Part shown: positions 8,504-33,627 of the stretch, one piece after another
Layout: every line of letters begins with the position of its first letter
Numbering within the stretch: the first letter of the stretch is position 1
Source: Xylanibacter muris
GTDB taxonomy: Bacteria > Bacteroidota > Bacteroidia > Bacteroidales > Bacteroidaceae
Direction: 5' to 3'
DNA length: 64,000 nt
NCBI RefSeq assembly: GCF_013166605.1
Contig: NZ_JABKKF010000001.1
Location: 434,001 to 498,000, forward strand
Program-made: the position numbers and the translations under genes
The notes under the pieces: generated by a model
Database searches by the model: none
What the model was told of the DNA's origin: nothing
What the model saw: only the letters and a program-made list of their open reading frames with translations

Positions 8504-8542
8504 AAAGTAGGAGGCGGATAAACCTTTCCGCCCCTACTTTTT
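8504..8542 (+). terminator. Rho-independent terminator
   Basis: AAAGTAGGAGGCGG (8504-8517) pairs with CCGCCCCTACTTT (8528-8540) with one mismatch and ends in a T run. It separates the modular protein gene from the GH51 gene only 38 bp later, so downstream expression needs read-through or a nearby promoter. Confidence 0.8.
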
Positions 8543-8579: not shown

Positions 8580-11500
8580 ATGAAAAGACTTTTGACTTTT
8601 TGGATACTGTGTGCCATCGCTATTTCCATGGTTGCACAAGTCAGCATGACTATTGACGCGACACGTCGGGGACCGCATATAGGACCCTATCACAACGGCC
8701 TCTTTTTCGAAGAGATAAATCATGCCGGAGACGGTGGCCTTTATGCCGAACTGGTGAGCAACCGTTCATTTGAAGACGGCCTTGCCAACTGGACAGCATA
8801 CAAGGGGACGGAAATAAGTCTGAAGACTAAAGGTCTGCTTAATGATGCACAGGCACATGCCCTGTCTGTGACTATCTCAGGTGCTTCAGAATCGAATATG
8901 AAAGGAATCGCGAACAGCGGATACTGGGGCATGAATATTGTGAAAGACTCGACATATAATCTCTCAATGTGGGTGAAAGGTGACGCTGCGTTCAATAACA
9001 AGATAATAGCACAGCTGCGTTCGAATGACGGGAAAAGCATATTGGGAAGAGCCGTATTAAAAGGCACGGTTAATAATACAGGTTGGAACAGGCTTTCTGT
9101 TTCTATTAAGGCAACCGCATCAGACAATAGAGGACAGCTATTGTTGCTCACGGGCACCAATGGCCATCTGGATCTGGATGTGGTTTCTTTGTTTCCTTAC
9201 ACGTGGAAGAACAGAAGCAACGGACTGCGTCCCGCCTTGGCACAGTTGTTGGCAGACACACGTCCTTCATTCCTGCGCTTTCCCGGAGGATGTTATGTGG
9301 AAGGCGAAGGCAGCTATGGAAACGCATTCCAATGGAAAAAGACAATAGGCCCCATAGAACAGCGTCCGGGGCATTATAATAAGAACTGGCACTATTGGTC
9401 ATCGGACGGTCTTGGCTTTGACGAATATCTTCAGATGTGTGAAGACCTTGGGGCCGCCCCGATGTTTGTGGTGAATATCGGTCTGGGCCATGGATTCTCC
9501 TTGTCGCATGATTCCACTCTCATACTTGTACAGGATGTACTTGATGCGATAGAGTATGCCAATGGTGATGCAGATACCGAATGGGGTGCAAGACGAATAG
9601 CCAACGGACATGCCGCACCTTATAATCTCAAGTTTATCGAGATAGGTAATGAAAACTATTCTCCGGGGGCGAACTCCGAGTACGCTGAACGGTATATTTT
9701 GTTTTATGATGCCATCAAGGCGAAATATCCAGAGATTGTGACCATAGGAAATGTAGAGGCATGGGGTACGGACAATCCTTCATGGGGTAATAACTATCCT
9801 GTTGAGATTGTAGACGAACACTACTACCGCACTTTCCAGTGGATGCGCAGCAATTACAATAAATATGACAACTATCCGCGTTTCCCTATCGTTTATAACG
9901 GAGAATATGCGGCCAACGGAGGAGGTTACGGCAAATACGGCAATATGAACAGCGCTTTGGGAGAGGCAATATATATGCTTGGTATGGAGCGTAACAGCGA
10001 TGTGTGCAGGATGGCTTCGTTTGCTCCTATCTTTACTCATGAAGAAGACCCCCGTTGGGCATACGACATGATACATTTCAACGCTTCCGACAATTTTGTC
10101 ACACCATCATACTATGTTCAGAAACTTATGAACATTAACCTTGGGAAGCAGAACCTGCTGTGGACAGAGAGCGGAAACAGACTGTCAAATATCAGTGATG
10201 TAAAGGTCGGATTAGGCTCATGGGGTACGCAGGTGGTATATGATGATGTTTCAGTTATCGGTTCCGATGGAAATATTGTAGCTTCCGACAATTTCAATGG
10301 CGGCATTGGAGCATGGATTGTCAATGACGGCAATTGGAATGTAAGTGACGGAACATTGGTGCAGTCTTCATTGGCAGAGAACTGTACGGCCGTGATGAAC
10401 ATACCCATGAACGGTAATTATACATATAAGGTGCGTGCGATGAAGACCGGAGGTAATGAGGGTTTTCTTATCTTGTTCAACTATCAGGACGGCCAGAACT
10501 ACGTATGGTGGAATATCGGAGGATGGAGCAACAGCAAACATGCGGTAGAGGTATGCAGCAATGGCTCAAAATCCACCGTGGCAGAGAAATCAGGCCGGGT
10601 GGAGAACAACAGATGGTATGACATCGAGGTGAAGGTGGACGGGGCGAATATTACATGCCTGCTTGACAATAAGGTAGTCCATGAATTCACCATGAGTGCC
10701 GACAGGGCATTGTATCAGAGTGTACAGATAGATGAAGATAAGGGTGAACTGATACTTAAGGTTGTAAATCCGAACTCGGAAGGTCAGACACTTAAACTCA
10801 ATATCCTTAATATGAGAATAGCCGACGGTACTGTTGTCCGTCTGCTTTCAAATGCAGGAACAGACGAAAATACGATGCAGACGCCTGATGTTATTGTTCC
10901 GACGGAAGGAGAGACGGTAGCCGTTGATGATGATACACACGCGACATTGGAAATACCGGCATATTCTCTGAATATCTTCAGACTGGGAGCAAGTGCGATA
11001 GGTGAGGAGGTAAAGATATCATATTCGGAATACGAGAAAGAGGATGAGAATATGGGAGCGTATCTTTATGCCCACATGAACGGACATGGTGAATACACAA
11101 ACTATGCGCTCAGCCTATACGGCAATAACTGGCAGGATATGTTAGGAGGGGCGGAAGTGTTTGACACAAAGGCCAATACTGTCACCGGAGGTATGCGTGA
11201 CGCTTATATCACCCGAATGCATGACGGAAATTTCATGCTTGCCGGAACCGATATGACTTCACGGTTGGGATGGACAAGCAACCATATCATGGTTCTTATG
11301 CTGTCTCCCGACCTTGTGCATTGGACTAAGAATGTAAAAATAGACCTTGAGTCCGCCGAGAATCTTGAGGCACTTGGCGGAATCACCGCAGAGGAGATGA
11401 CTGCAGCGTGGGCACCGCAGGTGATATATGACAAGGAAAGCGGTAATTATGTGGTATATTATAGCGTCGGTTTCCCGGACCGCCATCGTATTTATTACAG

Positions 11501-12830
11501 CATAGTTGACAAAGATTTGAACATACTTAGCCGTCCGGCTCTGTATTTTGACCCCGGCTATGATGTAATCGATGCAGATATAGTTTGGAATGATGTTGAC
11601 AAGCAATATGTGATGATCTACAAATGCGAGAAGACAACAGGGTTTGACCGTGCCACAGCTGACCATCTCATACCAAATGCTAATGAAACTAAAGGCACAT
11701 GCCAATGGACTGTGACACCTAACTTCCATTTCGGTGACAACAATCAGGCGATAGAAGCTCCTACACAGTGGAGGCGCATAGGGTCGGACAAATGGACGTT
11801 GGCGTATATCAACTATTCCGGCAACGGCTATGGATATAAAATGTGCAGCATGGACGAGCACGGGCTTAATATCGGCTCTCCTTCAATAATCAACGGAAAT
11901 GTGGATGCCCAGCATGGAAGTATATTAAAGATAACAACCGAGGAATACGACTATCTTAAGACCTGGGAGAAAGTGAAGATGCTTCTGCCCAAGGTGGAGT
12001 CATATTACAAGGCATGCAAGGTAGAGGCAATAGGTGATGCCATAGCCAAAGCCGAGAAGGCTCTTAACACAACCACAACCTTTGCACAGAACGTAAAGGC
12101 AATGGAAGCGGCCTATGCGGCATTGCTGGGATGTGAGGATATATATCTTGAATACATCAAACAGATGGGAGAGGCAGGCGCTGCTGTGGACATGACGGCA
12201 CTTATTGTCAATCCTGATTTCAGAGAAGGTGCGAGAGGATGGAGCACATCGGTTAATTTCACACAGGCTAACGGATATGTTGCGGAATTCTGGAATACTG
12301 CCTTTGACTTCTATCAGATAATAGAGAATATGCCAAAGGGTGAATATGAGCTTGGTGTGCAGAGCTTCTACCGGTACGGCTCCATTTCGGATGCCGTAAA
12401 TGCTCATAATAACGGTACAGAGAGGCTTAATGCCGTTTTATATGCAAATGGAGCTGAAGTCCCTGTAATGAGCATTTATGATGAGAGTGTAACACAGTAC
12501 ACACATTCGCCTTATACTTATCCGGACAACGTTACCGTAGCTAATGAGGCTTTCAATGATTATGGCTTATATACAAATACTGTAAAGCTGACGCTTGATG
12601 AAGCAGGACAGATAAAATTAGGTATAAGGAAAAAAGAGCATATATCTTCAGACTGGTGTTGCTTTGACAATTTCACCCTGAAGTATCTCGGTAATCCTGA
12701 TGCGATAAATAAAATAAGCCAAGGCAATGGCCGTAGTAAAAAAAAATACAATCTGGAAGGACAGGAAGTGAAAGGTAGGAAATCATATAAGGACATATAT
12801 ATAGTAAACGGAAAGAAAATAATAGAATAA
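8580..12830 (+). CDS. Secreted GH51-GH43 fusion, probable bifunctional alpha-L-arabinofuranosidase
   Basis: Two predicted glycosidases in one 1416-residue secreted chain. After a signal peptide (about 1-20), the GH51 catalytic part (about 25-530) opens with GLFFEEINHAGDGGLYAEL. Glu358 in EIGNEN is the likely acid/base and Glu442 in NGEYAANGG the likely nucleophile. A LamG/CBM-like sandwich (about 555-714) interrupts the GH51 C-terminal beta domain (to about 805). A GH43-like propeller follows (about 820-1130) with WAPQVIYD, VIDADIVW and Glu1059 in IEAPTQW. A short helical linker, one copy of the roughly 170-residue module shared with the upstream gene (about 1201-1372), and a basic tail with IYIVNGKK end the protein. 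It starts the compact gene train, with 15 bp to the next gene. Arabinose release from arabinan or arabinogalactan is inferred from the families. Confidence 0.9.
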   Translation: MKRLLTFWILCAIAISMVAQVSMTIDATRRGPHIGPYHNGLFFEEINHAGDGGLYAELVSNRSFEDGLANWTAYKGTEISLKTKGLLNDAQAHALSVTISGASESNMKGIANSGYWGMNIVKDSTYNLSMWVKGDAAFNNKIIAQLRSNDGKSILGRAVLKGTVNNTGWNRLSVSIKATASDNRGQLLLLTGTNGHLDLDVVSLFPYTWKNRSNGLRPALAQLLADTRPSFLRFPGGCYVEGEGSYGNAFQWKKTIGPIEQRPGHYNKNWHYWSSDGLGFDEYLQMCEDLGAAPMFVVNIGLGHGFSLSHDSTLILVQDVLDAIEYANGDADTEWGARRIANGHAAPYNLKFIEIGNENYSPGANSEYAERYILFYDAIKAKYPEIVTIGNVEAWGTDNPSWGNNYPVEIVDEHYYRTFQWMRSNYNKYDNYPRFPIVYNGEYAANGGGYGKYGNMNSALGEAIYMLGMERNSDVCRMASFAPIFTHEEDPRWAYDMIHFNASDNFVTPSYYVQKLMNINLGKQNLLWTESGNRLSNISDVKVGLGSWGTQVVYDDVSVIGSDGNIVASDNFNGGIGAWIVNDGNWNVSDGTLVQSSLAENCTAVMNIPMNGNYTYKVRAMKTGGNEGFLILFNYQDGQNYVWWNIGGWSNSKHAVEVCSNGSKSTVAEKSGRVENNRWYDIEVKVDGANITCLLDNKVVHEFTMSADRALYQSVQIDEDKGELILKVVNPNSEGQTLKLNILNMRIADGTVVRLLSNAGTDENTMQTPDVIVPTEGETVAVDDDTHATLEIPAYSLNIFRLGASAIGEEVKISYSEYEKEDENMGAYLYAHMNGHGEYTNYALSLYGNNWQDMLGGAEVFDTKANTVTGGMRDAYITRMHDGNFMLAGTDMTSRLGWTSNHIMVLMLSPDLVHWTKNVKIDLESAENLEALGGITAEEMTAAWAPQVIYDKESGNYVVYYSVGFPDRHRIYYSIVDKDLNILSRPALYFDPGYDVIDADIVWNDVDKQYVMIYKCEKTTGFDRATADHLIPNANETKGTCQWTVTPNFHFGDNNQAIEAPTQWRRIGSDKWTLAYINYSGNGYGYKMCSMDEHGLNIGSPSIINGNVDAQHGSILKITTEEYDYLKTWEKVKMLLPKVESYYKACKVEAIGDAIAKAEKALNTTTTFAQNVKAMEAAYAALLGCEDIYLEYIKQMGEAGAAVDMTALIVNPDFREGARGWSTSVNFTQANGYVAEFWNTAFDFYQIIENMPKGEYELGVQSFYRYGSISDAVNAHNNGTERLNAVLYANGAEVPVMSIYDESVTQYTHSPYTYPDNVTVANEAFNDYGLYTNTVKLTLDEAGQIKLGIRKKEHISSDWCCFDNFTLKYLGNPDAINKISQGNGRSKKKYNLEGQEVKGRKSYKDIYIVNGKKIIE

Positions 12831-12845
12831 CTAAAACTCACTAAC

Positions 12846-15557
12846 ATGAATTGCAAACAAGTCAGACGAGGTGCTTTTAGCCCCATGGTTGCAATAGGAC
12901 TGATGTTGGGAGCTGCCACATTATTTCAATCATGTGAGGACGATTTGCTCACAGGCCAGCCTTCATGGTTGGGCAACTCTATCTATGAAGAGTTGAATTC
13001 CGATGGCAACTACAAAACAATGCTCAGGCTTATTGACGATTTGGGGTTTCATGACCAGATGAGCCGTACAGGCTCTGTAACAATATTTGTTGCAGATGAT
13101 GTAGCCTTTGAAGAATGGTTTAAAACAAACAAAATGGGAGTTCGGTCGTACGAACAACTGTCGGTTGCACAGAAGAAACAGCTTCTCAACAAATCGATGA
13201 TTAACAATGCATATCTCATCGAGCTGATGTCGAATGTCAGTGCAGACCCGCCAGAGACAGGCATGGCAATGCGGCGTCCTAACTCAACAAGTGTGTTTGA
13301 TTCCATCTATGTGATGAAGCACGAGGATATGAACGGAGCCATGCCGGCATGGGCGTGGTACAAGCAGAACAAGAAGGATATCATTTTGTTTAAAGACGGT
13401 AGGATAATGAACGGAAGTTCGGTTGCGGGACTGTCGGAACCTATGATACATCTTCTGCCCGCATTTATGCAGAAGCAGGCTTTCACCGATGAGGACATAA
13501 AAATCCTGACCAATGGCAAGGCAACATCTGTAAACGATGCCTTTGTTGAGGGAAGAAAGGTCATTGAGCGTGATATAACCTGCAAAAACGGTTATATACA
13601 CAAAGTGGACGGAGTCATTGAAGGCTATGATAATATGGCGGAAATATTGCGCCGGCATCAGAACATGTCATTGTGGTCACATCTCATCGACCGTTTCAGT
13701 GCGCCATATTATGACAAGTACAAGACAGAAGAGTATAATCGTCTGTATGGAAAGAATGTTGATTCGGTATTTACGTTGCGTTATTTTGCCGATTCACGTA
13801 AAGACGGACTTGCTGCGACATCCTACCCGTTGACTTCCGGTAATCCGGTAGAGGAAAAAGTGCCGGCTACGCTTTCTTTTGATCCGGGGTGGAACCAATA
13901 CATGTATGAGAACACCAGCGGCTATGACCTTCATTATGATGCCGGTGCGATGCTGGTACCGGACAACGACGCTTTGCTTAGATGGTGGAATGCCGATGGA
14001 AAAGTGTTGAAGGATAAATATGGAACGTGGGATAATATTCCGGAGCTTGTGCTCTCCAAACTGTTGAGAGTGAACATGCTGGGGACATTTACAGATGCCA
14101 TACCGTCGAAATTCTCGTCAATCGTAAATGATGCCAAGGTATCGATGAATGTAAAGACATCGGATGTCGACAGTTGTTTTATCGGATGTAACGGTGTAGT
14201 GTATCTTACCAATCGTGTCTTCAGCCCAATGGAATATTCGAGTGTGTCTTTTCCGGCTCTTATACACCAGGATCTTATGAGTGTAATTTACTGGGCTATC
14301 GACGAACTGGAGTTCACACCCTATCTTAATTCAATGGACTCATACTATAGTCTGATGTTGCCGACGAACACGTCGATGCTCACATACGTGGATCCATGTT
14401 CATACGGAGAGTCACAGCAAACCCTTCTCGAGTTTTACTATGATGCCAGGGAGAAGAAAGTAAAGGCACGCCGCTATCTGTGTACCATAGGTGACAATGG
14501 CGAGATATCGATAGGACAGAAAATTGTCGAGAATGTGCCGGAAACACAGGTCAAGAACAGACTTAAAGATATTGTAAATCAGATGATTATCGTAGGCGAT
14601 GTGGAAAACGGCTACAGCTATTACAAGTCGAAGAACGGAACAATGGTCAAGATTTCCGATGCTGGTAAGTCAGGCCGGATGACTGTGGCCGGCGGATGGC
14701 AGATGGAGTATGGCACAGGAGTGAAAGTCGACTCTATTTATGATATGTCAGCGACGGGCAACGGTAAGTCTTACAGTCTGTCTGAACAAGTGCCCATGCC
14801 GGCATCAAAGTCTGTGTATCAGACATGTCTTGCCCATGAGGAATACTCCGAGTTCCTTAATCTGTTGATTGGCTCGCAGTATCTTGACAAGAATGACATT
14901 ATCCTTGCAAGCAGTGTCAAGCTCGGTGATAATAAATACAGTTGTCTTAATCCTACAGCTAACAGCAACATAAGTTTGTTCGGTACTTACAATTATACCG
15001 TATACATACCTACAAACGAGTCGATAAGACAATTGATAAATGACGGTATAATGCCGACATGGGACGATTTTGATGAGCAGTTCTTATTGTCGGAGAATGC
15101 CTCTACACAAGAAGAGAAAGATGCTGCCAAAGCTGCGTGCACAATGATAAAGAACCGTATATTGGATTTTGTGAAATATCATATCCAGGATAACGGAGTG
15201 GCTGTTAATGGTGCACCGGAAACAGGTGAGAACGGTGTCGCTATTATTAAGAACAACTATGAGACGATGGTGCTGAATGCAGAGACCAACCGTTATTATC
15301 CCGTTGAAGTGGATGTGGAAAACAAGGGGCTGAAAATAACCGACCTTACTGGTAATGTACGTAAGGTTGTGGAGAAAGACGGCCTGTATAATAATATATG
15401 TCGCGAGTACTGGGTATCAGGAACAGGCTTCAACAAGCTTCTGTATACATCAGCCGATGCTGTAGTTCATCTTATTGACGGACCTCTGTTCTACAGCTCA
15501 AGTCAGAAGACATTATGGAAGAATGAAATGTCGAATGCCAAATTGAGAAGGAGGTAA
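12846..15557 (+). CDS. Multi-FAS1-domain surface lipoprotein
   Basis: Signal peptide with lipobox LFQS-C (Cys30) followed by acidic residues, as in surface-exported Bacteroidetes lipoproteins. The 903-residue chain carries fasciclin (FAS1)-like units: the first near residues 40-110 (ending in TIFVADDVAFEEWF), a second from about 265 (ILRRHQNMSLWSHLIDRF), and further copies after about 420 and 670 (YTVYIPTNESIRQL). It sits 4 bp before susC, in the slot where SusE/SusF-type glycan-binding lipoproteins often occur, so surface capture or display of glycan is the likely role. No catalytic motif is seen. Domain number is approximate. Confidence 0.82.
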   Translation: MNCKQVRRGAFSPMVAIGLMLGAATLFQSCEDDLLTGQPSWLGNSIYEELNSDGNYKTMLRLIDDLGFHDQMSRTGSVTIFVADDVAFEEWFKTNKMGVRSYEQLSVAQKKQLLNKSMINNAYLIELMSNVSADPPETGMAMRRPNSTSVFDSIYVMKHEDMNGAMPAWAWYKQNKKDIILFKDGRIMNGSSVAGLSEPMIHLLPAFMQKQAFTDEDIKILTNGKATSVNDAFVEGRKVIERDITCKNGYIHKVDGVIEGYDNMAEILRRHQNMSLWSHLIDRFSAPYYDKYKTEEYNRLYGKNVDSVFTLRYFADSRKDGLAATSYPLTSGNPVEEKVPATLSFDPGWNQYMYENTSGYDLHYDAGAMLVPDNDALLRWWNADGKVLKDKYGTWDNIPELVLSKLLRVNMLGTFTDAIPSKFSSIVNDAKVSMNVKTSDVDSCFIGCNGVVYLTNRVFSPMEYSSVSFPALIHQDLMSVIYWAIDELEFTPYLNSMDSYYSLMLPTNTSMLTYVDPCSYGESQQTLLEFYYDAREKKVKARRYLCTIGDNGEISIGQKIVENVPETQVKNRLKDIVNQMIIVGDVENGYSYYKSKNGTMVKISDAGKSGRMTVAGGWQMEYGTGVKVDSIYDMSATGNGKSYSLSEQVPMPASKSVYQTCLAHEEYSEFLNLLIGSQYLDKNDIILASSVKLGDNKYSCLNPTANSNISLFGTYNYTVYIPTNESIRQLINDGIMPTWDDFDEQFLLSENASTQEEKDAAKAACTMIKNRILDFVKYHIQDNGVAVNGAPETGENGVAIIKNNYETMVLNAETNRYYPVEVDVENKGLKITDLTGNVRKVVEKDGLYNNICREYWVSGTGFNKLLYTSADAVVHLIDGPLFYSSSQKTLWKNEMSNAKLRRR

Positions 15558-15561
15558 TTTT

Positions 15562-18500
15562 ATGGAGTATATTAATATAATAAATATAAAGACGATAAGC
15601 CGAAAGACAGGCAGGTTGCACCGGCTGTTTTTCATGACGCTCATGCTGATGCTGTGCTCGTCGGTATTTGCACAGATATCATCCGTCCACGGCACATTGT
15701 CTGACGAGATGGGGCCTTTGATGGGTGCTACCGTTTGCGAGGTAGACGTCAACGGACGTATCATCAACTCGGCCATCACAGACCTGAACGGAAATTTCAC
15801 CATGTCGGTGAAAAACCAAAAGAATAAGATAAGGTTCAGTTATGTGGGACTCAAAACACAAACGATGCCTATCAGCCGTTCTGTATATAATATAAGGATG
15901 CAGAGCGCTACCAAACTGAAAGAAGTAACGGTGGTGTCGAAAAAACGCACGGGCGGCAATAACCTTGGAGTGCCTGAGCGTGAGATATCGTATGCATCAC
16001 AGAGTATTAATATGAAAGAGTTTGAAGGTTTGTCGTTCACTTCTATTGATGAGGCTTTGCAGGGACGTATAGCTGGTCTTGATATCATTGGAAACTCCGG
16101 TGACCTCGGCTCTGGGTCAAGCATACGTTTGCGTGGCGCCTCTTCATTGTCGACACTTACAGATTCTAATCCGCTTATTGTTATTGACGGTAATATCCGT
16201 AGTGTCGATCTGACGGGGTATGATCTGGCATCAGCCAGCAATGAGACTTTCTCGGAATTGCTTAATATCAATCCGGAGGATATTTCAGACATAAAAGTGC
16301 TGAAAGATGCTGCCGCTACGGCTGTATATGGTAGCCAGGGTGGTAACGGTGTTATCGAGATTACCACTAAGCGTGGCGCTATGGGAGCTCCCAGGGTGTC
16401 TTATTCGTTCAAACTTACGGCCACTCAACAGCCTAAGGGATATAAGTTGCTTAGCGGTGATGACTATACCATGATGCTTAAGGAAAGCTACTTCAATCCC
16501 ACTCAGAACGACAATATAAGTCAGAGCATAAGGGAAATAAACTATGACCCTACGTTCTCTGAATACGAACAGTATAACAACAATACCGACTGGCGTGACG
16601 CTGTTACGCAGACGGGATGGCGTCAGAATCACTATCTGTCGATAACCGGTGGCGGTGAGAAGGCAAGATTCCGTATCGGAGGAGGTTTTGACACGGAAAA
16701 AGGCTCGGTTATCAAGCAGGGACTTGACAGGTTCTCCACACGTGTCGCTCTGGACTATTATGTCAGTGACCGTATAACGGTGTCGACCAATTTCGCCCTT
16801 ACCTATACCAAGACAAAATTCAACAGCGATGACCTTCTTGCAATTGCGATGAAGAAGATGCCTAATATGAGTATTTACGAACAGGATCCGGTTACGGGTG
16901 AGGATACCGGACGTTTCTATGAAATGCTGCAGTCGGCATCAAGCGTCTTTGATAAGAATCAGAAGGATCTTGTAAACCCTGTGGCCAGCGCTTATCTGGC
17001 CAAGAAGACCAGAAGAACATACGACCTTGTTCCGGAACTGGTTATAAACTACCGTCTTCTCGGAACCGATGACCAGCATACCCGTCTTGATTGGCGCGGC
17101 AGTGTGCTGATGAGTGTCTACAATCAATATGATGATTCATTCTATCCGTCGGAGCTTAGGACTGTCTCTTGGGACAATGGAGTGAACACTGCATCATCGG
17201 CAAGTCTGAAGAGCGTTAACTTCAATACCAAACAGACCATTACCTTTATCCCTCATTTCAACAATGAGGACCATTCGCTTATGATGATGGGACGTTTTGA
17301 GTTGAATTCAGGAACCAAAAGCTCACAGTCAAACGGTGCCAAGCTCCTTCCCTCCGGAGGTATAGAGAGCCCTGATGCCGGTGGTTTCAATACAGGTCTC
17401 GCGTCGTCTTATTCACAGTCGCGTACAATGTACTTCACCTATTCGGCCCACTATGCCTATAAGGGTAAGTATATGGCCGACTTCTCAATACGTGCTGATG
17501 GTACGACAAAGTTCGGTCCCGGAAAGCGTTGGGGATATTTCCCTGCAGTGTCGCTCAGATGGAACATATCGGATGAGGCGTTCATGAAACCTACAAAGAA
17601 ATGGCTCTCGATGCTTTCATTGCGTCCAAGCTGGGGACGTGTGGGTACCGCACCGAAAATAGACTATCTCTATACCAGTAAGTATGCTTCGGGAAGCAAC
17701 TATCTTGACATGCCGACAATGCGTCCTTCGAATATACGTCTTACCGATCTGCGCTGGCAGGAAACATCAAGTTATAACATCGGTGTGGACCTCGGACTGT
17801 GGGATGACCGTTTGTCCATGGCTATTGAAACATACCGTTCGACAACGTCTAACCTGCTTCTTGAGAATTATCGTATTCCTTCAAACTCAGGATTCATGAC
17901 ATTGCCTTATCATAACAGCGGTAAGATGCGCAATATAGGATGGGAGTTCCATATCAATACAAACAGATTGGTGAAGGTAGGTAAGGTCACTATAGACATG
18001 AATGCCAATTTCGGTAATAACCGGAATGAGATTCTGGAGATGGACGAGTATGTTCTCAACTCACTCAATTCAACGTTCGCATACAACAACGGTGAGTGGC
18101 TGCGCCGCGTACAGTTGCATAATCCGCAAGGCGCAATTTATGGCTTCAAGTATAAGGGTGTTTATCAATACAATTATGAGACATTCAAGAATCTTGATGA
18201 GGAAGGACGTGCTGCATTCCTGGCATCAGGAAAGACTGCACCGGTGGCATTTAATGCCAATGGTCAGCTGATACTTGATTCCGAGGGTAATCCCTTACGC
18301 ATGAGGTATAACTATAATAACGAGGGCACAGGCAAGAATTATCCGTTTACCGGTGGTGATGCCATATATGAGGATATAAATCATGACGGTAACATTGATG
18401 CGCTTGATATTGTTTATTTGGGAAGTTCGCTTCCTAAGCTTGTCGGAGGTTTCGGCTTCGCATTCTCATACAAGAAATGGCGTCTTACAACACAGTTTAC

Positions 18501-18927: not shown

Positions 18928-18942
18928 ACAGCTAAGACATTT

Positions 18943-20667: not shown

Positions 20668-20703
20668 CCGGGTTTCATTAATAATGTAAAATGAAGTAAC
20701 AAT

Positions 20704-22776: not shown

Positions 22777-22800
22777 TTGAAATAATAAATACAATCGGTT

Positions 22801-24495: not shown

Positions 24496-24528
24496 GACTT
24501 GTTTTCATGATTATAAAACGACAGCAAT

Positions 24529-27500
24529 ATGAAACTCAAGAATATCACATTCTATAATAAGATTTGCCATAATGTTCCGGCAGGATGCATCGTGTTGTGC
24601 ATGGGAATGTTGGCTTGTCCTTCAAATGTATTCGCCCAAGACGATGATACTGATGAGACGGTGGAGGTTTTAAATAAGCCTGAAGTAAGAAAACAGAAGC
24701 ATTACGCTTTGCGTACGATAACCGGACGTGTCGTAGACGCAAACAATAATCCCGTGTTCGGTGCAATCGTTAATGCAATGGATTTCGAAGGCTATAGTAC
24801 ATTAACGGAAGAAGACGGTACATATAAGTTGGAGTTGCCTGTTTTCTGTAGTTCGGTAATAATCACCGAACCCAAGTACAATTCTGTTGTAATAGGATTG
24901 CAGAAAGGTGAGAAACAGATGGAGGCGACTATGTATTCCACATCGTTCACATCCGGGTACAGCAGCGATATGAACAGGCGGAATGACAGAAGTTCAACGT
25001 CGTTCGGCTATACGTCGGCATTGAACGTTAAGGAGGAAATACAGAAGCAGCTTGGCGGGGTTGCCTACACCCAGCAGCGTAACGGTACTCCCGGTATCGG
25101 AGGCAATATTTTCATCCAGGGTATCAACTCATTGAATGTAAATGCCCAGCCTCTTGTGGTTGTTGACGGTGTCGTGCTTGACCAACAGTATGGACGCACC
25201 ATGATTCACGACGGTTTCACCAATGACATCCTTTCCAATATAAGTCCTGCTGACATAGAGAAAGTTACAGTGCTTCGAAACGGAACTGCTCTTTATGGAG
25301 CCAAGGGGGCAAATGGTGTGATCCTCATAGAGACACGCCGTTGCAAGAGTATGGCTACACGTATCTCTGCCACTATTTCCGCCGGCATAACAGCCAAACC
25401 CAAGTTTATCGACATGATGGATGCGGAGCAGTATCGCGGTTATGCTTCTGAAATGCTAAAGACCACGTCTACAAGAATCCGCGAGTTTAAGTTCTTGAAC
25501 AACGACCCTAACTACTATTACTACAATCAGTATCATAACAATACGGACTGGAAGGATAAGGTTTACCGTACTGCGTTCACACAGAACTATGGCATCACGG
25601 TAGAGGGTGGAGACAATGTCGCCACATATAATCTGTCTGTGGGTTATACGGAGGCAAACAGTACGTTGGAATATAACGACATGTCACGTTTGAATATAAG
25701 GTTCAATACAGATATCAACCTTGTAAAGAATCTGTCGGTGAGATTTGACGCGTCATTCTCTAACCTTACACGTGATATAAGGGATGACGGTGCGCCTTTG
25801 AGCTATGATGAGGGAACCCCTACGTCTCCTTCATTTCTTGCATACGCGAAGTCTCCGTTCCTGAGCCCGTACGCTTTCGGACGCGGCGTGATATCCGACT
25901 CGCATCTTGACATCACACCGGAAAGCTATCTTGATGAGGCTCTTGCCAATTATTCCGATTACAACTGGAAGCTCGCCAACCCTGTGGCGTTGAATGAATA
26001 TGCGGAGGCTTCGAACAAGAACCGTTTCGAAAACTCGTTGCTCAACATATCCGTGAGGCCGGAGTACAGAATCACACCCAACCTTTCGGTAAGCGAACAT
26101 TTCAGCTATACATTGGTAAACACCAATGAGAAGTATTATATTCCTATCAACGGTGTGCCTTCGTATTATGTGGCAGAGGTGAACGGATTCCGGACCAATG
26201 AGGTGCGCTCGCTCTTCTCCAAGCAGAACTCAGTCATGAGTGATACTCGTGTTTCCTGGCATAACCGTTATGATGCGCATAATATAAGTGTGTTTGGCGG
26301 TGCCCGCATTCAGTGGGAGTCATATTTGCTCAATAACCAGCTTGGATATAATACCGGTAGTGACAAGACTCCGTTTATGAGTTCTGGTCTTATGAATGCC
26401 AATTCTTTCGGTACAAAGGACAACTGGAATTCACTGGCTTGGTATCTGCAGGCCAATTATGACTTCATGGGCAGATATTATCTGCAGGGCAACCTTACGG
26501 CGGAAGGCTCTTCACGTTTTGGTGAGGATGCCGACGGCCTTAGCCTGTTCGGCGCGTCGTGGGGCGTGTTCCCATCGTTGCAGGCATCATGGGTCATCAC
26601 CAACGAGCCATGGATGGCAAAGGCCGGAATCTTCAATTTCCTGCGCCTCACTGCCGGTTATGACGTGAGCGGAAATGATGACATCGACTATTATGCCGCA
26701 CGAAGCTATCTCCGCTCGAAACTGTTTCTGCATGCCTTGTCCGGTATTACAATTGCCGGCATTGGCAATACCAAGATAAAGTGGGAGACAACACGTCGTG
26801 TCAATGTCGGTATCGATGCGGCCATGCTTAACAACAGGCTTTCTTTATCTTTCAACGTATTCAAGAGTTGGACCAGCGACCTTCTTACAATGCAGAGTCT
26901 TGGTTTCCTGTCCGGACTTGATTCCAACTGGTCGAACGGAGGAAAGCTGGAGAATGAAGGCTTTGATTTGAGTGCAAATGTGAAGGTAGTGTCAAACCGT
27001 GACTGGCAATGGGAAATCGGTGGAAGTATGGGGCATTATAAAAACAAGCTGACCGAGCTTCCTGATAACAAGACATACATTGATACGGAACTGTATGGAG
27101 CCGTTGTCCGTTCGGAGGTGGGCATGCCCGTCAATATGTTCTACGGTTATAAGACTAAGGGCGTGTTCTCAACTTCAGAAGAGGCGGAAAAGGCCGGAAA
27201 GTATGTTCTTGACGCCAACGGAGTGACCAAGCATTATTTCGGTGCCGGTGACATGATTTTTGTAGACAGGGACGGAAACGGTGAGATCAATGATAAGGAC
27301 CGTTTTGTCATCGGTGACCCCAATCCCGACATCTACGGTAATATCTCAACATCACTGACATACAAGAATATCAACCTTGATGTGCGTTTCAATTACAGTC
27401 TCGGCAATGATGTGTACAACTATATGCGTTCTCAGCTTGAGGGTGGCAGCCGTTTCATGAATCAGACGAGCAACATGTTGGGCCGCTGGCAGGCGGAAGG

Positions 27501-27813
27501 ACAGGTGACGGATGTGCCTAAGATCACATTCCAGGATCCGATGGGCAACTCACGTTTCAGCGACCGTTGGATAGAAGACGGCTCATATCTTCGTCTGAAA
27601 ACTGTCACCTTGAGCTACCGTATGCCGATGAACTCACAGTATATCCAGGGGCTTGAGTTCTGGATTCAGGGCAACAACCTGTTGACATTCAGTAAATATC
27701 TTGGCTCCGATCCGGAATTTTCAACCACAACGTCTGTGATAGGTCAGGGTATAGACTGCGGTCAGTTGCCGCAAAGTGCGTCTTTTGTTGCAGGTGTGAG
27801 AATCAATTTGTAA
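24529..27813 (+). CDS. SusC-like TonB-dependent outer-membrane transporter (second pair)
   Basis: Second outer-membrane oligosaccharide importer of the locus, 1094 residues. A signal sequence ending VFAQ (about residue 36) is followed by a regulatory-like beta domain (about 63-135; TGRVVDANNNPVFGAIV), the plug (FIQGINSLN, PLVVVDGVV, ADIEKVTVLRNGTALYGAKG, GVILIETRR) and the barrel. It is clearly divergent from the first SusC, so the two pairs probably import different products or entered the locus separately. The paired susD starts 21 bp downstream. Confidence 0.95.
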   Translation: MKLKNITFYNKICHNVPAGCIVLCMGMLACPSNVFAQDDDTDETVEVLNKPEVRKQKHYALRTITGRVVDANNNPVFGAIVNAMDFEGYSTLTEEDGTYKLELPVFCSSVIITEPKYNSVVIGLQKGEKQMEATMYSTSFTSGYSSDMNRRNDRSSTSFGYTSALNVKEEIQKQLGGVAYTQQRNGTPGIGGNIFIQGINSLNVNAQPLVVVDGVVLDQQYGRTMIHDGFTNDILSNISPADIEKVTVLRNGTALYGAKGANGVILIETRRCKSMATRISATISAGITAKPKFIDMMDAEQYRGYASEMLKTTSTRIREFKFLNNDPNYYYYNQYHNNTDWKDKVYRTAFTQNYGITVEGGDNVATYNLSVGYTEANSTLEYNDMSRLNIRFNTDINLVKNLSVRFDASFSNLTRDIRDDGAPLSYDEGTPTSPSFLAYAKSPFLSPYAFGRGVISDSHLDITPESYLDEALANYSDYNWKLANPVALNEYAEASNKNRFENSLLNISVRPEYRITPNLSVSEHFSYTLVNTNEKYYIPINGVPSYYVAEVNGFRTNEVRSLFSKQNSVMSDTRVSWHNRYDAHNISVFGGARIQWESYLLNNQLGYNTGSDKTPFMSSGLMNANSFGTKDNWNSLAWYLQANYDFMGRYYLQGNLTAEGSSRFGEDADGLSLFGASWGVFPSLQASWVITNEPWMAKAGIFNFLRLTAGYDVSGNDDIDYYAARSYLRSKLFLHALSGITIAGIGNTKIKWETTRRVNVGIDAAMLNNRLSLSFNVFKSWTSDLLTMQSLGFLSGLDSNWSNGGKLENEGFDLSANVKVVSNRDWQWEIGGSMGHYKNKLTELPDNKTYIDTELYGAVVRSEVGMPVNMFYGYKTKGVFSTSEEAEKAGKYVLDANGVTKHYFGAGDMIFVDRDGNGEINDKDRFVIGDPNPDIYGNISTSLTYKNINLDVRFNYSLGNDVYNYMRSQLEGGSRFMNQTSNMLGRWQAEGQVTDVPKITFQDPMGNSRFSDRWIEDGSYLRLKTVTLSYRMPMNSQYIQGLEFWIQGNNLLTFSKYLGSDPEFSTTTSVIGQGIDCGQLPQSASFVAGVRINL

Positions 27814-27834
27814 AACATAACCATCAAGAAAGAT

Positions 27835-29601
27835 ATGAAAACAAAGTATATATTTGGCGGGATGATAACGGCCGCTTTAACAATATTTTCGTCATGCAGT
27901 GATTTTTTCGATCAAGACTCTGACCATGTCATCTTTACTGACGGTCATAAATTGAATGAGGCTTCCGACACTATTTACTCGCTGACGGGAATAATGACGA
28001 AGATGCAGGCACTTGGCGACCGCACTGTTCTTCTTGGAGAGGTAAGAGGAGATTTGGTGGACGTCACCAATGCTGCAAATGCCGACCTGCGTGAACTGGC
28101 ACAGTTCAATATCAGCGACGAAAACAAATATAACAGTCCCAAAGACTATTATGCAGTTATAAACAACTGTAACCTTTATATCTCTAAGGCTGACACAACA
28201 ATCAGGAACAGTTCAAACAAACCTCTGTTCCTTAAAGAATATGCCGCAGTAAAGGCTTATAGGGCATGGACCTATCTGCAATTGGTGTTGAATTATGGCA
28301 GAGTGCCGTTCTATACTGTGCCGATAACGACAAAGGAGCAGGCTGATGCGAAATATGAAGAGAAAGGCATCGTTGACTTATGCAATACCCTTATTGCCGA
28401 CATTGCCCCGTTGGCAGATGTGGAGATGCCGGGATTGGGAAAAATAGGCGTCACGGACAGCCGTATGCTCTATTTCCCAATATACATGCTGTTGGGCGAC
28501 CTGAATCTTTGGGCAGGGAACTATAAGGAGGCCGCAACGGCTTATTATAAGTATATAACTACCGCCAATGGCAGCAATTCATATTTCCCAATATCTTCAT
28601 CGCGTGTATCCTGGGTCGGAACAGACTGGCTTAGTGCCCGTGATTCTTGGAGTACGCAATTTTATTCAGAGACTTTCACGCAAGACCGCGGAATAGTCAC
28701 AATGATTGCCGGTGACTCTATTCCTTCTGACGGAAACTACAGCCAGTTGCGTAATATTTATAATAGTAATGTCGACAATGATTTCAAGCCGAGTCTTGTG
28801 CCTTCACAGTCGTTGATAGATCTGTCCGCGAGACAGGTATACTGTCAGTTGACAAACGGAGGCAGGGATACTATATATGCCCCTTCAAATCTCACTATGA
28901 ACCGTGCCGGAGATTTGAGGCTTATATCATGCTGGAGTTCATACCGAGGCGTATATCAGGGCAATACCGTGACAAACCAGCGTATTTCAAAGTTCAGTTC
29001 GAGAAATATAACGGTATATCGCCGTGCCACTGTCTATCTTCGCCTTGCTGAGGCGTTGAACCGTGCCGGTTATCCGCATTTCGCTTACGAGATACTTGCT
29101 CAGGGCGTGAACAATACCATTATAGAAAGGCACGTGCTGCCGCATTGCAAGACAGCCGCAGACACAGCATTTGTCAAGTCATTTAATTTCCCGAGCGGTT
29201 CTTCCAACGGATATATTGTGGAGGATATTGCCAGCGGTCAGATTTATTATAACACCATAGGCTTGCATTCGCGCGGGTCGGGTTACAGTGACTGTAATAA
29301 GTATTATATGATGCCCGATGATGCCACTCTCGGTGAACAGGAGCGTCTTGACTATCAGATAAGCAAGGTTGAGGATATGATTGTCGATGAGGGCGCGCTT
29401 GAATTTGCCTTTGAAGGAACGCGTTATTACGATTTGCTGCGTGTGGCGTTGAGACGTAATGACCCGGATTATCTTGCCGGCCGTATCTATGCACGGAGAG
29501 GCGAGGACAAGACGGAAGAAGTGAAGTCGGAAATAAAGTCAGACCTTAGCGACATGAAAAACTGGTTTATGTCATGGGAGGGTAAGCTTGGCATAAGGTG
29601 A
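27835..29601 (+). CDS. SusD-like surface glycan-binding lipoprotein (second pair)
   Basis: Lipobox FSS-C (Cys21) then SDFFDQDSD. The N-terminal TPR-like part (AVKAYRAWTYLQLVLNYGRV, about 134-153) and the C-terminal signature EGALEFAFEGTRYYDLLRVA (about 522-541) identify the family. The length of 588 residues is typical. It is the partner of the preceding SusC, with 28 bp to the following hydrolase gene in the same train. Confidence 0.94.
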   Translation: MKTKYIFGGMITAALTIFSSCSDFFDQDSDHVIFTDGHKLNEASDTIYSLTGIMTKMQALGDRTVLLGEVRGDLVDVTNAANADLRELAQFNISDENKYNSPKDYYAVINNCNLYISKADTTIRNSSNKPLFLKEYAAVKAYRAWTYLQLVLNYGRVPFYTVPITTKEQADAKYEEKGIVDLCNTLIADIAPLADVEMPGLGKIGVTDSRMLYFPIYMLLGDLNLWAGNYKEAATAYYKYITTANGSNSYFPISSSRVSWVGTDWLSARDSWSTQFYSETFTQDRGIVTMIAGDSIPSDGNYSQLRNIYNSNVDNDFKPSLVPSQSLIDLSARQVYCQLTNGGRDTIYAPSNLTMNRAGDLRLISCWSSYRGVYQGNTVTNQRISKFSSRNITVYRRATVYLRLAEALNRAGYPHFAYEILAQGVNNTIIERHVLPHCKTAADTAFVKSFNFPSGSSNGYIVEDIASGQIYYNTIGLHSRGSGYSDCNKYYMMPDDATLGEQERLDYQISKVEDMIVDEGALEFAFEGTRYYDLLRVALRRNDPDYLAGRIYARRGEDKTEEVKSEIKSDLSDMKNWFMSWEGKLGIR

Positions 29602-29629
29602 GACAACGTTTATAACGATATAAGATAAT

Positions 29630-32600
29630 ATGGCTATGCACATGAATATATGTTTTAGATGGGCTATGTCATTGTTGGGTATGATGACGGTATCGGCAGC
29701 CATGGCTGCCAATACCGTCACTACCGTTAACAAGGTGACATCAGATGTGGTAATTTCCGATGATGTTGATTATCATATCACGGATGCCGTTCCGTTTTCT
29801 GCTACCGGAAGCATCAATATTACGGCAGTAGACCATGCGGTGATTATTTTCGACAATGTGAAACCTTCGAAGCTTGTCAGCTATCTTCCGTATGTCAGGA
29901 TAAATGGCGCCGATGCTGTCAATAACAGGACATGCCAGGTTAAGATATACAACCAGGGGTCTATGATTCTTCCATACGGCAGCGATATCAGGCCGCTTAC
30001 TGTCTATAGCGGACAGAACTTTACCGGTACGTCGGTGAGCGACTTCGGTCTGGAGAGTAACGGAGGCTTCATGAATACCCTTAAAGATGAGAAACTGAAC
30101 AACAAGATACGCAGTTTCAAGTTGAAGAGAGGGTATATGGTCACATTCTCTACACGTGCTGGAGGCTACGGCTATAACAGATGTTTTGTGGCTGATACGG
30201 AGGATCTGGAGATTGCGGAGCTGCCGGGAATCCTTGACCGCAGTATCTCCTCATACCGTATCTTCAAATGGAATGATGCCAGCAAGAAAGGTCTTGCCAA
30301 CGATACTCGCACAGTATCTAATGACGCTCTGAACACCACATGGTGCTATTCGTTCGGTCTTGGTGAGGATACCGGCATGGATCGTGAGTGTGTGGCACAT
30401 CATATTTATGAAGGGTGGCCGGCCATAGCCGACTGCGGCCGCAACAACTATACTACGTCTGCCCCTACCATGAAGACCAATAACGAGCCGGGAAACAAGT
30501 CTGATGATCATCCTCAGAGTGTTGCGGAGGTGCTTGCAAACTGGGAGACGCTGATGGCTACAGGATTGCGTCTGTGTTCGCCTTCTTCCCATGACGGCAG
30601 TCTTAACTGGCTGAAGGAATTCATGGATTCTGTGGATGCCAGGGGGTGGCGTTGCGATGTGTTGGACGTGCACTCCTATTGGCCGTCGGGCAGTTTCTAC
30701 AACCTGCAGTCATGGTATAACAGCTATGGTCGTCCGTTGTGGATATCAGAGTGGTGTTGGGGCGCGTCATGGAACAACAACGGTGTGTTCAACTCCGGAC
30801 TTTCCGATGAAGAGGCAAAGAGGCAGAATGCGGACAGGATAAAGGAACTGACTGAATTGATGAACGGCTATGGCTATGTGGAGCGTTTTGCCTATTGGAA
30901 TTCAGAGGCCGACCGTTCAAAGGTATATCTGAATGGCACTCTCACCGATGCAGGCAGAAACTATGCGGCATTGAAAGGTGTCATAGGATATAACAAGAAA
31001 TATGAATTTGTTCCGAAATTGCCAAAGGCTAAAGGAGCTCCTTCAAATCTTTCGTGCAGATTTAACGCTTCAACAGGAGTAGCGGTGCTTGGCTGGCATG
31101 AACCGAACGGAGAATATAATAAGAGCATGACTGTGGAACGCCGAAAGAAAGGGACTGCATGGGAGACGCTCATGGAAGTGGAACTGGAAGAGGGTGAGGC
31201 AGACTATAGAGTGGAAGATAATGAATCCTTTGACGGTGCCGAGTATCGCATACATGTTGTTTATTCGGATGGTAAAGACTATTATACAGCAAAGACAGCG
31301 ACAGCCGTTCCAGAAAAGATGCTTCCAGGCGATGCCATAGATGTTAACGGCAGGAAATACTATATAGGAGGCAACATACTGATTAACGGCAGTTTTGATT
31401 TCGGGACTCAGGGCTGGACTAACGGTGAAGGCGGCATTCTGTCTCTGCCGGATTTCGAGGTGTTACCAAAAGGAGGCTATGACGGAGGAACATACCTGCA
31501 GTCTTATTCCAACCAGTCATTAGACAAGGCAGGTTCGGTAAAGACCATGGTCGAACTTGAGAAAGGGGCTGATTACTATTTCAGTGCGGCCTCATATTAT
31601 AACGGCATGTCGGTAAACAAGCTGAGCATGACCCGTGACGGTGTTAAGGAAGACTCTGTTGTTGCCGGTATACCGAACAATGTTGTATGGTCGAAGTATG
31701 CCACGACATTCAATACGGGAACATACAGCAAGGCCTTGGTGGCGTTTTCCCACTTGGGAGCCCGCGCACAGTTTGACCAACTTTCAATATCACGTCTGTT
31801 CTTGTCAAAGGAAGAGGCTGTAGCAGACGGCTTGTCGGCAGAGACAAGAAGAGCACGGATGTTGCTTGATTTCAACAAGTCGCTTCCGCAATTGAACGAA
31901 GGTGTGAAGTCTGTTTTAGAGCAGGCCGGGAATACGGAGGAATACCTGTTGTCGCTGGTGTCAGTCATAGACAACACTATTGAGGCTCTCGGCATGAAGC
32001 GTATCGCTGACTCTGTTGCGGTTGTTGCTGGTGCGGCCATAGCCGAAGGCTTTGACGGCAGTGAAGAGCTGAAGGCCTCAATAGAGACATTGTCGTCAAC
32101 GACATCGGCGGAAACATATATTGGCGAGGTTGCCACGCTTGGCGAGAAGCTTGCCGTATGTATGCCGTTTAAAGAGACATCGTTTATAAAACATCCTTCC
32201 TTCGGGCAGCAAACCATTGACTGGAAAAGAACCGGTTCCTATACAGGAGGGGAACAGGGTATATCCGTTCAAGACGGAAAGAAATGCTGGAGCGCACTGT
32301 GGAAAGACATAAGCGCGTCGGAGCAGGACGGACTCACGATGGCTGTATCACAGAGGATTATCAAGGATGCCGGCGGTGAATATCTTTCACATGGCCTCTA
32401 TGTATTGGAATGTAAGGCTTCAACGCAGCATTATTGCGTTTCCGACCAGCATTCCTATATCGTGTATAAAGGAGACAGCATCGTCTCACCGATACTTTCC
32501 GCAGATTACCTTGACATTCCGGCAATAACCGGCAACGGCAAATGGCAGACGCTTATAACGCCTGCTGTCTATGTAAGCGACAAAGATACCCTGACAATAG

Positions 32601-33310
32601 GCTTCACCTCATCGAAGGCAAATGCTGTCGACAACGCCTGGAAACCGTATGGCGATAATAACGGAAAGGGCGACATGCGTGAAGGCAGCTGGTGTGCGAC
32701 GGATTTTGTGCTCCGTTATCTGCCCGTCTATCATTATAAGGCGGATGCAAGCGGATGGTCCACACTTTGTCTTCCGTATGATGCAACCCCGTCAAAAGGT
32801 GTAAGGTTTTATCAGATAGCAGGCGTCACGGCTGATAAGTCGCAGATCTGTCTTGAGGAAATAAACGGGAGTGCGGCAGGTGTTCCATGCGTGGTCTATT
32901 CAGATCATTCTGATGTCGTGATATATGAGACGGGAGAGAAAGTGACCAAGAGAACAGTCGGCCCTAACGGGCTCAACGGACTTTTTATCACATCGGCCAC
33001 GACGCCTGAGAACGGATTGGTGCTGAAAGATGGGAAATGGGTTATACAGAACTCTCCCAATCGTGATGAAAGGGCAAAGATCGGTGACTATTCCGCATAT
33101 ATAAAGAATATAGACAATATGACGGTGTTACAGGACTGGACGGGTGTCACTCTGCCTGTTAGCTCGCTTTTGTCATCTGTAAACAGGATAGACGCAGATG
33201 CCGGCAAGCCCGAATTCTATTCCTTGGATGGAATAAGATATGAGAAGGAACCGGAGTCGGGTGTCTATGTAAGGGTTGTTGACGGAAAAGCCGTTAAAGT
33301 GATGAAATGA
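29630..33310 (+). CDS. Secreted GH128-like glycoside hydrolase with accessory domains
   Basis: Predicted retaining endo-hydrolase of the Asl1/GH128-like TIM-barrel type. A signal sequence (about 1-27; in-frame ATGs at 29630, 29636 and 29642) precedes a beta-rich N-terminal region (about 30-200). The catalytic core (about 200-450) has Glu286 in MKTNNEPGN (likely acid/base) and Glu374 in LWISEWCWG (likely nucleophile). An FN3-like domain (about 470-560), a sandwich domain (about 575-725), a helical stretch (about 735-845) and further beta domains follow. The C-terminal tail has YSLDGIRYEKE and resembles tails of other secreted proteins here. GH128 enzymes characterised so far act on beta-1,3-glucan; whether this one cleaves a glucan or a beta-1,3-linked galactan side chain is open. 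It is the last gene of the 8580-33310 train. Confidence 0.8.
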   Translation: MAMHMNICFRWAMSLLGMMTVSAAMAANTVTTVNKVTSDVVISDDVDYHITDAVPFSATGSINITAVDHAVIIFDNVKPSKLVSYLPYVRINGADAVNNRTCQVKIYNQGSMILPYGSDIRPLTVYSGQNFTGTSVSDFGLESNGGFMNTLKDEKLNNKIRSFKLKRGYMVTFSTRAGGYGYNRCFVADTEDLEIAELPGILDRSISSYRIFKWNDASKKGLANDTRTVSNDALNTTWCYSFGLGEDTGMDRECVAHHIYEGWPAIADCGRNNYTTSAPTMKTNNEPGNKSDDHPQSVAEVLANWETLMATGLRLCSPSSHDGSLNWLKEFMDSVDARGWRCDVLDVHSYWPSGSFYNLQSWYNSYGRPLWISEWCWGASWNNNGVFNSGLSDEEAKRQNADRIKELTELMNGYGYVERFAYWNSEADRSKVYLNGTLTDAGRNYAALKGVIGYNKKYEFVPKLPKAKGAPSNLSCRFNASTGVAVLGWHEPNGEYNKSMTVERRKKGTAWETLMEVELEEGEADYRVEDNESFDGAEYRIHVVYSDGKDYYTAKTATAVPEKMLPGDAIDVNGRKYYIGGNILINGSFDFGTQGWTNGEGGILSLPDFEVLPKGGYDGGTYLQSYSNQSLDKAGSVKTMVELEKGADYYFSAASYYNGMSVNKLSMTRDGVKEDSVVAGIPNNVVWSKYATTFNTGTYSKALVAFSHLGARAQFDQLSISRLFLSKEEAVADGLSAETRRARMLLDFNKSLPQLNEGVKSVLEQAGNTEEYLLSLVSVIDNTIEALGMKRIADSVAVVAGAAIAEGFDGSEELKASIETLSSTTSAETYIGEVATLGEKLAVCMPFKETSFIKHPSFGQQTIDWKRTGSYTGGEQGISVQDGKKCWSALWKDISASEQDGLTMAVSQRIIKDAGGEYLSHGLYVLECKASTQHYCVSDQHSYIVYKGDSIVSPILSADYLDIPAITGNGKWQTLITPAVYVSDKDTLTIGFTSSKANAVDNAWKPYGDNNGKGDMREGSWCATDFVLRYLPVYHYKADASGWSTLCLPYDATPSKGVRFYQIAGVTADKSQICLEEINGSAAGVPCVVYSDHSDVVIYETGEKVTKRTVGPNGLNGLFITSATTPENGLVLKDGKWVIQNSPNRDERAKIGDYSAYIKNIDNMTVLQDWTGVTLPVSSLLSSVNRIDADAGKPEFYSLDGIRYEKEPESGVYVRVVDGKAVKVMK

Positions 33311-33549: not shown

Positions 33550-33582
33550 GGATGAATGCTATGGTATGAATGTTCTCGTTGA

Positions 33583-33627
33583 GCCAAACGGGCAATGTAA
33601 AAATAAGCTTGACATTGCCCGTTTGGC
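33583..33627. repeat. Perfect 16-bp inverted repeat, 13-nt loop, upstream of the HExxH gene
   Basis: GCCAAACGGGCAATGT (33583-33598) is the exact reverse complement of 33612-33627. The hairpin ends 47 bp before the preferred start codon. There is no following T run, so an operator or leader structure is as likely as a terminator. Confidence 0.6.

Follow-up and report, generated by a model that had tools for sequence, protein, structure and literature searches.

In the closest described glycan importers, the SusCDEFG system and the levan and dextran utilisomes of Bacteroides thetaiotaomicron, a SusC transporter, a SusD lid, binding lipoproteins and surface enzymes are encoded at one locus, and the known utilisomes are dimeric and contain one kind of SusCD to which further lipoproteins are added (accessible part of PMC7618045). 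The locus described here, located in a window of 64,000 nucleotides from Xylanibacter muris (contig NZ_JABKKF010000001.1, G000:C1:434001-498000 in our numbering; genome of 3.35 Mb, 99.97 % complete), encodes the same kinds of components, but where those systems have one SusCD pair with SusE/F or a surface glycan-binding protein it has two paralogous SusCD pairs and three lipoproteins with FAS1 domains, designated FasA, FasB and FasC. It probably represents a conserved outer-membrane module for glycan capture and import, consisting of two sister SusCD pumps and of the three FAS1 lipoproteins as surface glycan-binding proteins.

Other polysaccharide utilization loci (PULs) share single features with this locus. 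The homogalacturonan PUL BT4108-BT4124 of B. thetaiotaomicron is a pectin locus that also has two SusCD pairs, but the binding protein named there is BT4112 and the term FAS1 is absent from the accessible part of the text (PMC8002723); the idea of FAS1 genes at BT4117, BT4118 and BT4122 was dropped, BT4122 being assigned in that source to a SusCD pair. The arabinogalactan protein (AGP) PULs of Bacteroides contain a GH43_24 exo-beta-1,3-galactanase, resembling in this the window locus with its adjacent GH43_24-like enzyme, but the word fasciclin does not occur in the accessible text (PMC8406133). A FAS1 gene is labelled in a figure legend for a Gramella PUL, but this legend label is all that the accessible part of the source gives and no seven-gene order is described in it (PMC4891872). 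In a symbiont a transcribed FAS1 gene and also a two-SusCD locus are on record (accessible part of PMC10199937). The seven-gene FAS1/SusCD arrangement met with only incidental mentions of FAS1 in the accessible open-access literature, PULDB not having been searched, and it may have been described elsewhere.

The operon comprises nine plus-strand genes between positions 8580 and 33310, identified from the list of open reading frames with Pfam and NCBIfam (Table 1), with eight intergenic gaps of, in order, 15, 4, 15, 36, 24, 33, 21 and 28 bp. The original prediction gave the strand and the gene families correctly and its estimate of gaps of about 4-40 bp agrees with the measured 4-36 bp, but it counted ten genes. 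The large gene directly upstream is probably not a tenth member of the operon, since a gap of 98 bp and a terminator-like hairpin separate the two; the hairpin is the sole item taken from the promoter scans, which covered sigma-70 types. As in Sus-like PULs, both SusC proteins pass the TIGR04056 cut-off of 368.25 bits, each is followed by a SusD family protein according to Pfam, and carbohydrate-active enzymes with GH51, GH43 and Glyco_hydro_cc domains as well as a two-component sensor, the likely regulator, are present at the locus. The GH43 part of the first operon gene was detected only by the NCBIfam BAD_1527 model (52.6 bits, below its cut-off of 500).

Table 1. Features of the window at and around the FAS1/SusCD operon
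Feature	Position	Strand	Basis or remark
Two-component sensor, hybrid type (Reg_prop propeller, Y_Y_Y, HisKA, HATPase)	3..2951	-	truncated by left window edge
GH43 enzyme, probable exo-beta-1,3-galactanase (GH43_24-like)	3256..4413	+	Pfam GH43, PDB matches
Large secreted-type protein, no Pfam family, three copies of a module common to two neighbours	4882..8481	+	
Terminator-like hairpin ahead of operon	8513..8532	+	
CBM4_9-GH51-GH43 arabinofuranosidase-type enzyme	8580..12830	+	C-terminal module as in 4882-8481 and 33570-36026
FasA, lipoprotein-type, four tandem FAS1 domains in model	12846..15557	+	Pfam Fasciclin, structure model
SusC1 TonB-dependent transporter	15562..18927	+	TIGR04056 691.5 bits, slot-1 clade
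SusD1 lid lipoprotein	18943..20667	+	Pfam SusD_RagB, tree
FasB, lipoprotein-type, two FAS1 domains and C-terminal CBM35-like beta-sandwich in model	20704..22776	+	Pfam, structure model
FasC, FAS1 lipoprotein-type	22801..24495	+	Pfam only
SusC2 TonB-dependent transporter, SusC1 paralogue	24529..27813	+	TIGR04056 586.5 bits, slot-2 clade
SusD2 lid lipoprotein	27835..29601	+	Pfam SusD_RagB, tree
Glyco_hydro_cc (GH128-like) enzyme, final gene of operon	29630..33310	+	Pfam
Protein with HELLHGVG motif, shared C-terminal module and tail like that of type IX secretion system (T9SS) cargo	33570..36026	+	starts 259 bp past operon
NCBIfam NF002091 match	36271..37335	+	411 bits, cut-off 250
Short-chain dehydrogenase/reductase (SDR) enzyme	37374..38177	+	NCBIfam; one gluconate 5-dehydrogenase model above cut-off, KduD models below

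The seven genes in the order FasA-SusC1-SusD1-FasB-FasC-SusC2-SusD2 constitute a unit that is present in four copies in the genome. The further copies, located by a FAS1 search of the genome, lie on contig C21 (approximately 13.4-30.7 kb), contig C1 (approximately 286.5-302.4 kb) and contig C5 (approximately 75.7-59.7 kb, minus strand), and for 20 of their 21 genes the best BLAST match in the window was the gene of the expected slot. FasA of the C5 copy was assigned in a separate comparison, in which the C21 and C1 copies formed part of the reference set and only C5 was tested. The TIGR04056 search returned 10 SusC genes in the genome, and since eight of them belong to the four cassettes the module probably handles much of the glycan uptake of the organism. 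The SusD_RagB model gave hits at nine positions, of which seven belong to cassettes and two to contig C20; the eighth cassette SusD escaped it. The SusC repertoire is small: the only two non-cassette SusC genes map at G000:C20:17227-20211 and 156808-160053.

An alignment search with FasB of GTDB contigs found at least 533 encoded relatives, and the best 80 were retrieved together with 10 kb of sequence on either side, as far as the contig extended; the closest relatives among the matches listed came from Prevotella metagenome-assembled genomes (84 %) and Hallella seregens (79 %). The complete seven-slot order was present in 67 of these 80 loci, and 12 loci cut by contig ends were consistent with it as far as the sequence reaches. 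Median intergenic gaps across 71 loci were 4-35 bp. The seven-slot pattern is more than chance, since it recurs in three more copies in the genome and in 67 of the 80 related loci, and what had looked like one odd locus is a recurring module. The arrangement of two SusCD pairs interleaved with three FAS1 genes was correctly predicted, and in view of the four copies, the relatives and the trees described below it is a conserved seven-gene module and not an ad hoc mosaic.

Some of the 80 loci showed variations. In L083 FasA is encoded after SusD2 (L083:18388-20871), with the other six genes in the usual order. L041, L042 and L048 carry tandem FasB genes within otherwise complete cassettes and were scored as complete because neighbouring FasB copies were merged in the count.

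Another 27 loci were hand-picked from FasB hits in other genera and families. All seven slots were found in order in 19 of them, in 18 by slot profiles and in L140 with FasC recognised by Pfam, and one more, L151, lacks FasC; further genera and two additional families from the same class are represented among these loci. In L139 SusC1 is split across two frames. In the family as a whole, where at most three candidates were scored per genome, a FasB match at E 1e-20 was obtained in 215 of 301 genomes and 18 of 30 genera; the profile was built mostly from Prevotella-type proteins and its reach limits the meaning of absences. The SusC1 profile, run over 148 genomes, separated cassette SusC1 proteins (at least 1337 bits) from all others (at most 876 bits). 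Ten lower-scoring loci were inspected: the one with 876 bits is a cassette without FasC (L214), two contain a single SusCD pair and one FAS1 gene (L215 and L217), and the other seven had no FAS1 slot match inside 20 kb.

The trees indicate that the SusCD pair was duplicated once and that the two resulting pairs have remained linked to each other and to the FAS1 genes, since SusC1 and SusC2 form sister clades against 34 other SusCs and the SusD tree agrees. In the SusC tree (FastTree, 97 SusCs, 1054 columns) support was 0.999 for the SusC1 clade, 1.0 for the SusC2 clade and 0.969 for the two together, the 34 proteins used for comparison being SusCs not assigned to a cassette, with surroundings inspected for a minority of them. 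Smaller SusC trees gave the same picture, and the SusCs of L214 and L151 branch at the bases of the cassette SusC clades. Slots were assigned by profile, in agreement with gene position in every complete cassette. Against 27 other SusDs, support reached 1.0 for SusD2, 0.975 for all cassette SusDs, including six that had been grouped wrongly, and a weak 0.712 for SusD1, with four partial cassette SusD1 proteins first placed in the outgroup counted in. FasA, FasB and FasC each formed a single clade (1.0, 1.0 and 0.998, trees without outgroup). Distances in the slots were correlated at 0.89-0.98 over 82 cassettes, values of little weight because they are not corrected for the species history that the slots share.

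Two SusCD pairs also occur together in other PULs, and for one such PUL it has been suggested that the pairs might target different oligosaccharides (accessible part of PMC6298971). The locus could accordingly be explained as two conventional SusCD systems, independent of each other and each serving its own glycan, that are adjacent by accident, with the FAS1 proteins as hitchhiking adhesins. This explanation is very improbable, because chance adjacency does not fit the identical slots in 67 of 80 and 19 of 27 loci and the common origin of the two pairs. Single SusCD pairs followed by a FAS1-CBM96-cadherin-like protein were observed at L215:8460-14412 and L217:5678-11777; they belong to a different SusC lineage and were rejected as the ancestral form, their SusCs not branching beside the SusC1+SusC2 clade.

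The SusCD transporters described so far are dimers in which a single kind of SusCD pair is repeated, and no outer-membrane importer built from two different SusCD halves is known to us, no search for one having been made. An obligate hetero-utilisome nevertheless deserves consideration as an unlikely but specific form of the module: SusC1 and SusC2 would build a mixed twin barrel, FasA would bridge its halves, and FasB and FasC would pass on oligosaccharides in such a way that acidic and neutral ones reach different barrels. Under such an arrangement the duplicated pairs would have stayed together because of the mixed barrel. With the module it could be tested directly whether mixed pairs of SusCD pumps can function. 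If the proposed history is true, the paired SusCD duplication would also be a trackable signature of complex plant glycan uptake in Prevotella and its relatives.

The three FAS1 proteins passed the Pfam Fasciclin cut-off of 22 bits (FasA 45.5, FasB 38.4 and FasC 38.3 bits), which was their sole Pfam match at E 0.01, and none of them matched the SusE models. They may work like SusE/F despite this. The proposal that FAS1 lipoproteins occupy the SusE/SusF slots is in line with their position, which is that of SusE/SusF-type proteins, with their lipobox-like starts and with the CBM35-like domain in the FasB model. In all three N-termini a lipobox-like stretch is followed by acidic residues (CEDD, CSDE and CSDK). 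Acidic residues after the lipobox cysteine are a signal for surface export, and the three proteins may be displayed on the cell surface. In the window a permissive lipobox pattern fitted all three FAS1 proteins and both SusDs (SusD1 with an early cysteine), but it fitted SusC2 as well; in relatives it fitted 69 of 72 FasA, 79 of 79 SusD1, 80 of 80 FasB, 77 of 78 FasC and 78 of 78 SusD2 proteins.

The FasA model (pLDDT 87.4) aligns with the four-FAS1 adhesion proteins TGFBIp and periostin over 506-514 residues (Z 16.5-17.4), but with an rmsd of 13.5-14.8 and an identity of 15-17 %, so the inter-domain geometry differs, and FasA is a bacterial lipoprotein. FAS1 domains act as protein-protein modules in periostin and TGFBIp, and among the FAS1 relatives of solved structure are adhesion proteins and components of large complexes. 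The FAS1 proteins could be structural, docking to one another, to the pumps and to the enzymes so as to form a large surface complex without binding glycan themselves, a possibility that we hold tentatively. No carbohydrate-binding fold appeared among the matches of the FasA model, and the gene order is never scrambled in the complete loci among the 80, L083 being the sole rearranged locus; the absence of other folds among the structure matches of FasA and FasB carries no weight. A purely structural role is less easily reconciled with the FasB model (pLDDT 89.6), in which two FAS1 domains (residues approximately 35-430), resembling those of TGFBIp and periostin, are followed by a C-terminal sandwich (approximately 438-680). 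The sandwich matched a xanthan-lyase domain (Z 10.8), MiXBM (10.3) and CBM35 modules (7.7-8.2), a likeness of fold only with Z near the level of common arrangements; the CBM35 entry with Z 8.2 was solved with anhydrogalacturonate. Only the N-terminal FAS1 part aligned when FasB and FasC profiles were compared, and no common C-terminal domain was seen. Among the copies of this genome the FAS1 proteins diverge more than the SusCs, as expected of parts that face the substrate.

If, as we consider probable, the FAS1 lipoproteins capture glycans for two sister pumps, the GH51-GH43 enzyme, the GH128-like enzyme and the adjacent exo-beta-1,3-galactanase-like GH43 would trim a branched plant glycan, and FasB, perhaps with FasC, would keep the chains near the pumps, a task that the CBM35-like domain could perform in FasB. 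FasA with its four FAS1 domains in a row would serve as a scaffold or as an arm that binds chains, SusC1D1 and SusC2D2 would take up different oligosaccharides of one glycan, and the neighbouring two-component sensor would turn the locus on. The module would have been re-deployed with different enzyme sets on different glycans. Bacteroidota would then possess, in addition to SusE/F-type proteins, another widespread means of capturing glycans at the cell surface, based on FAS1 domains.

Several observations weigh against this reading of the module, among them the limits given above for the 34 comparison SusCs and for the CBM35-like fold. In a sample of the phylum only 10 of 395 genomes, the own genome included, had a FasB match at E 1e-20, all of them in the same class. 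L151 and L214 have no recognisable FasC, and their last SusD fits the SusD1 profile better than that of SusD2. FasC of the C1 copy at 286 kb has window FasA and not FasC as its best match (BLAST E 6e-4), although the tree places it among the FasC proteins. FasB is also found independently of the cassette, since it occurs without SusCD genes in 7 of the 27 further loci (L150, L152, L153, L155, L156, L158 and L159), of which only L153 gave a SusC-profile hit, a weak one, and since up to 11 FasB matches were counted in one genome (G010; eight in G011). FasB-like genes have multiplied without a cassette in L152, L153, L158 and L159, partly in tandem (three in L159).

The substrate of the window copy is likely to be type II arabinogalactan, which is our best guess from sequence, because the adjacent GH43 resembles exo-beta-1,3-galactanases and the operon encodes GH51/GH43 arabinofuranosidase-type domains. 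The best PDB match of this GH43 was 6eug (E 6.8e-149), which we take to be an exo-beta-1,3-galactosidase of B. thetaiotaomicron; both 6eug and 6euf are printed as 'Beta-glucanase'. Weaker matches were 3vsf, 7bys/7byv/7byx (galactan 1,3-beta-galactosidase) and 5flw (exo-beta-1,3-galactanase), and four chains among all matches bear one of these two names. GH43_24 is made up exclusively of exo-beta-1,3-galactanase-type enzymes (accessible part of PMC8406133), and the window enzyme is a probable GH43_24-like member of this type. A proteoglycan target, suggested in the original prediction, may hold for this copy in the form of AGP, by virtue of a GH43 enzyme encoded outside the interval that the prediction covered.

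Pectic arabinan or side chains of rhamnogalacturonan I (RG-I) could be the substrate in place of AGP, with KduI and the SDR enzyme acting on pectin uronates. We regard this as possible but not as the favoured assignment: the GH51 and GH43 arabinofuranosidase-type domains of the operon suit it, a KduI gene was identified downstream of the operon by NCBIfam, a rhamnogalacturonan lyase gene is found near the C21 copy, and PL11, PL4, GH28, GH106 or acetylesterase genes flank distant copies, but Pfam revealed no polysaccharide lyase and no GH28 among 18 window proteins (3256-46965; that at 4882-8481 had no Pfam match at all), and the nearest GH43 is exo-beta-1,3-galactanase-like.

The assignment to arabinogalactan also has points against it. 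The GH43_24 membership of the adjacent enzyme is putative, and GH128 enzymes known to us are beta-glucanases. The GH43 domain within the operon is similar to BAD_1527, an enzyme that is inactive on arabinogalactan (accessible part of PMC11264647). Flank tallies, which list the first 25 families, are mixed, with a homoserine dehydrogenase and a transposase directly beside two cassettes.

The enzyme neighbours differ among copies, and for this reason the core is considered a module for transport and binding that has been put to use on several plant glycans. A gene for a PL11 rhamnogalacturonan lyase and genes of acetylesterase type lie close to the C21 copy, and the C5 copy is beside a GH30 gene whose best matches are GH30 enzymes that degrade xylan, including several glucuronoxylanases. 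Action of the C5 copy on arabinogalactan through a beta-1,6-galactanase was rejected on account of these matches. Flanks of distant copies contained, among the families listed, PL4, PL11, GH28, GH106 and acetylesterase genes together with many unrelated genes. Of 67 flank proteins scanned around related cassettes, 8 belong to the Glyco_hydro_cc family of the last operon gene. The argument that FAS1 domains are adhesive and hence indicate a proteoglycan is not supported, because the same FAS1 trio adjoins RG-I enzymes (C21), a glucuronoxylanase-like GH30 (C5) and PL4 or acetylesterase genes elsewhere. As a generalisation, the glycans served by the copies would have uronic acids in common, and the KduI gene nearby fits uronate-bearing glycans. 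The stand-alone FasB of L156 adjoins UxaC (glucuronate isomerase) at 6636-8036, which hints at a uronate link.

An unnamed C-terminal-type module, without a Pfam family, is shared by the proteins encoded at 4882-8481 (three copies), 8580-12830 and 33570-36026. The last of these has a zincin-like HELLHGVGVIP motif at residue 230 and a ricin-type lectin match below the Pfam cut-off, and could possibly be a protease acting on a glycoprotein core.

Tails resembling those of T9SS cargo were recognised by eye in the proteins starting at 8580, 29630 and 33570, and SprA_N is present in the genome. TIGR04183 gave 13 matches in the genome, 12 of them above cut-off and none in the window. The cassette enzymes were rejected as general T9SS cargo, a crude tail pattern being found in just 9 of 118 plus-strand flank proteins of relatives with complete C-termini (7 of 70 upstream and 2 of 48 downstream). 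Export of cassette enzymes by this route is a possibility only; the PL4 lyase beside one distant cassette carries a T9SS CHU_C domain.

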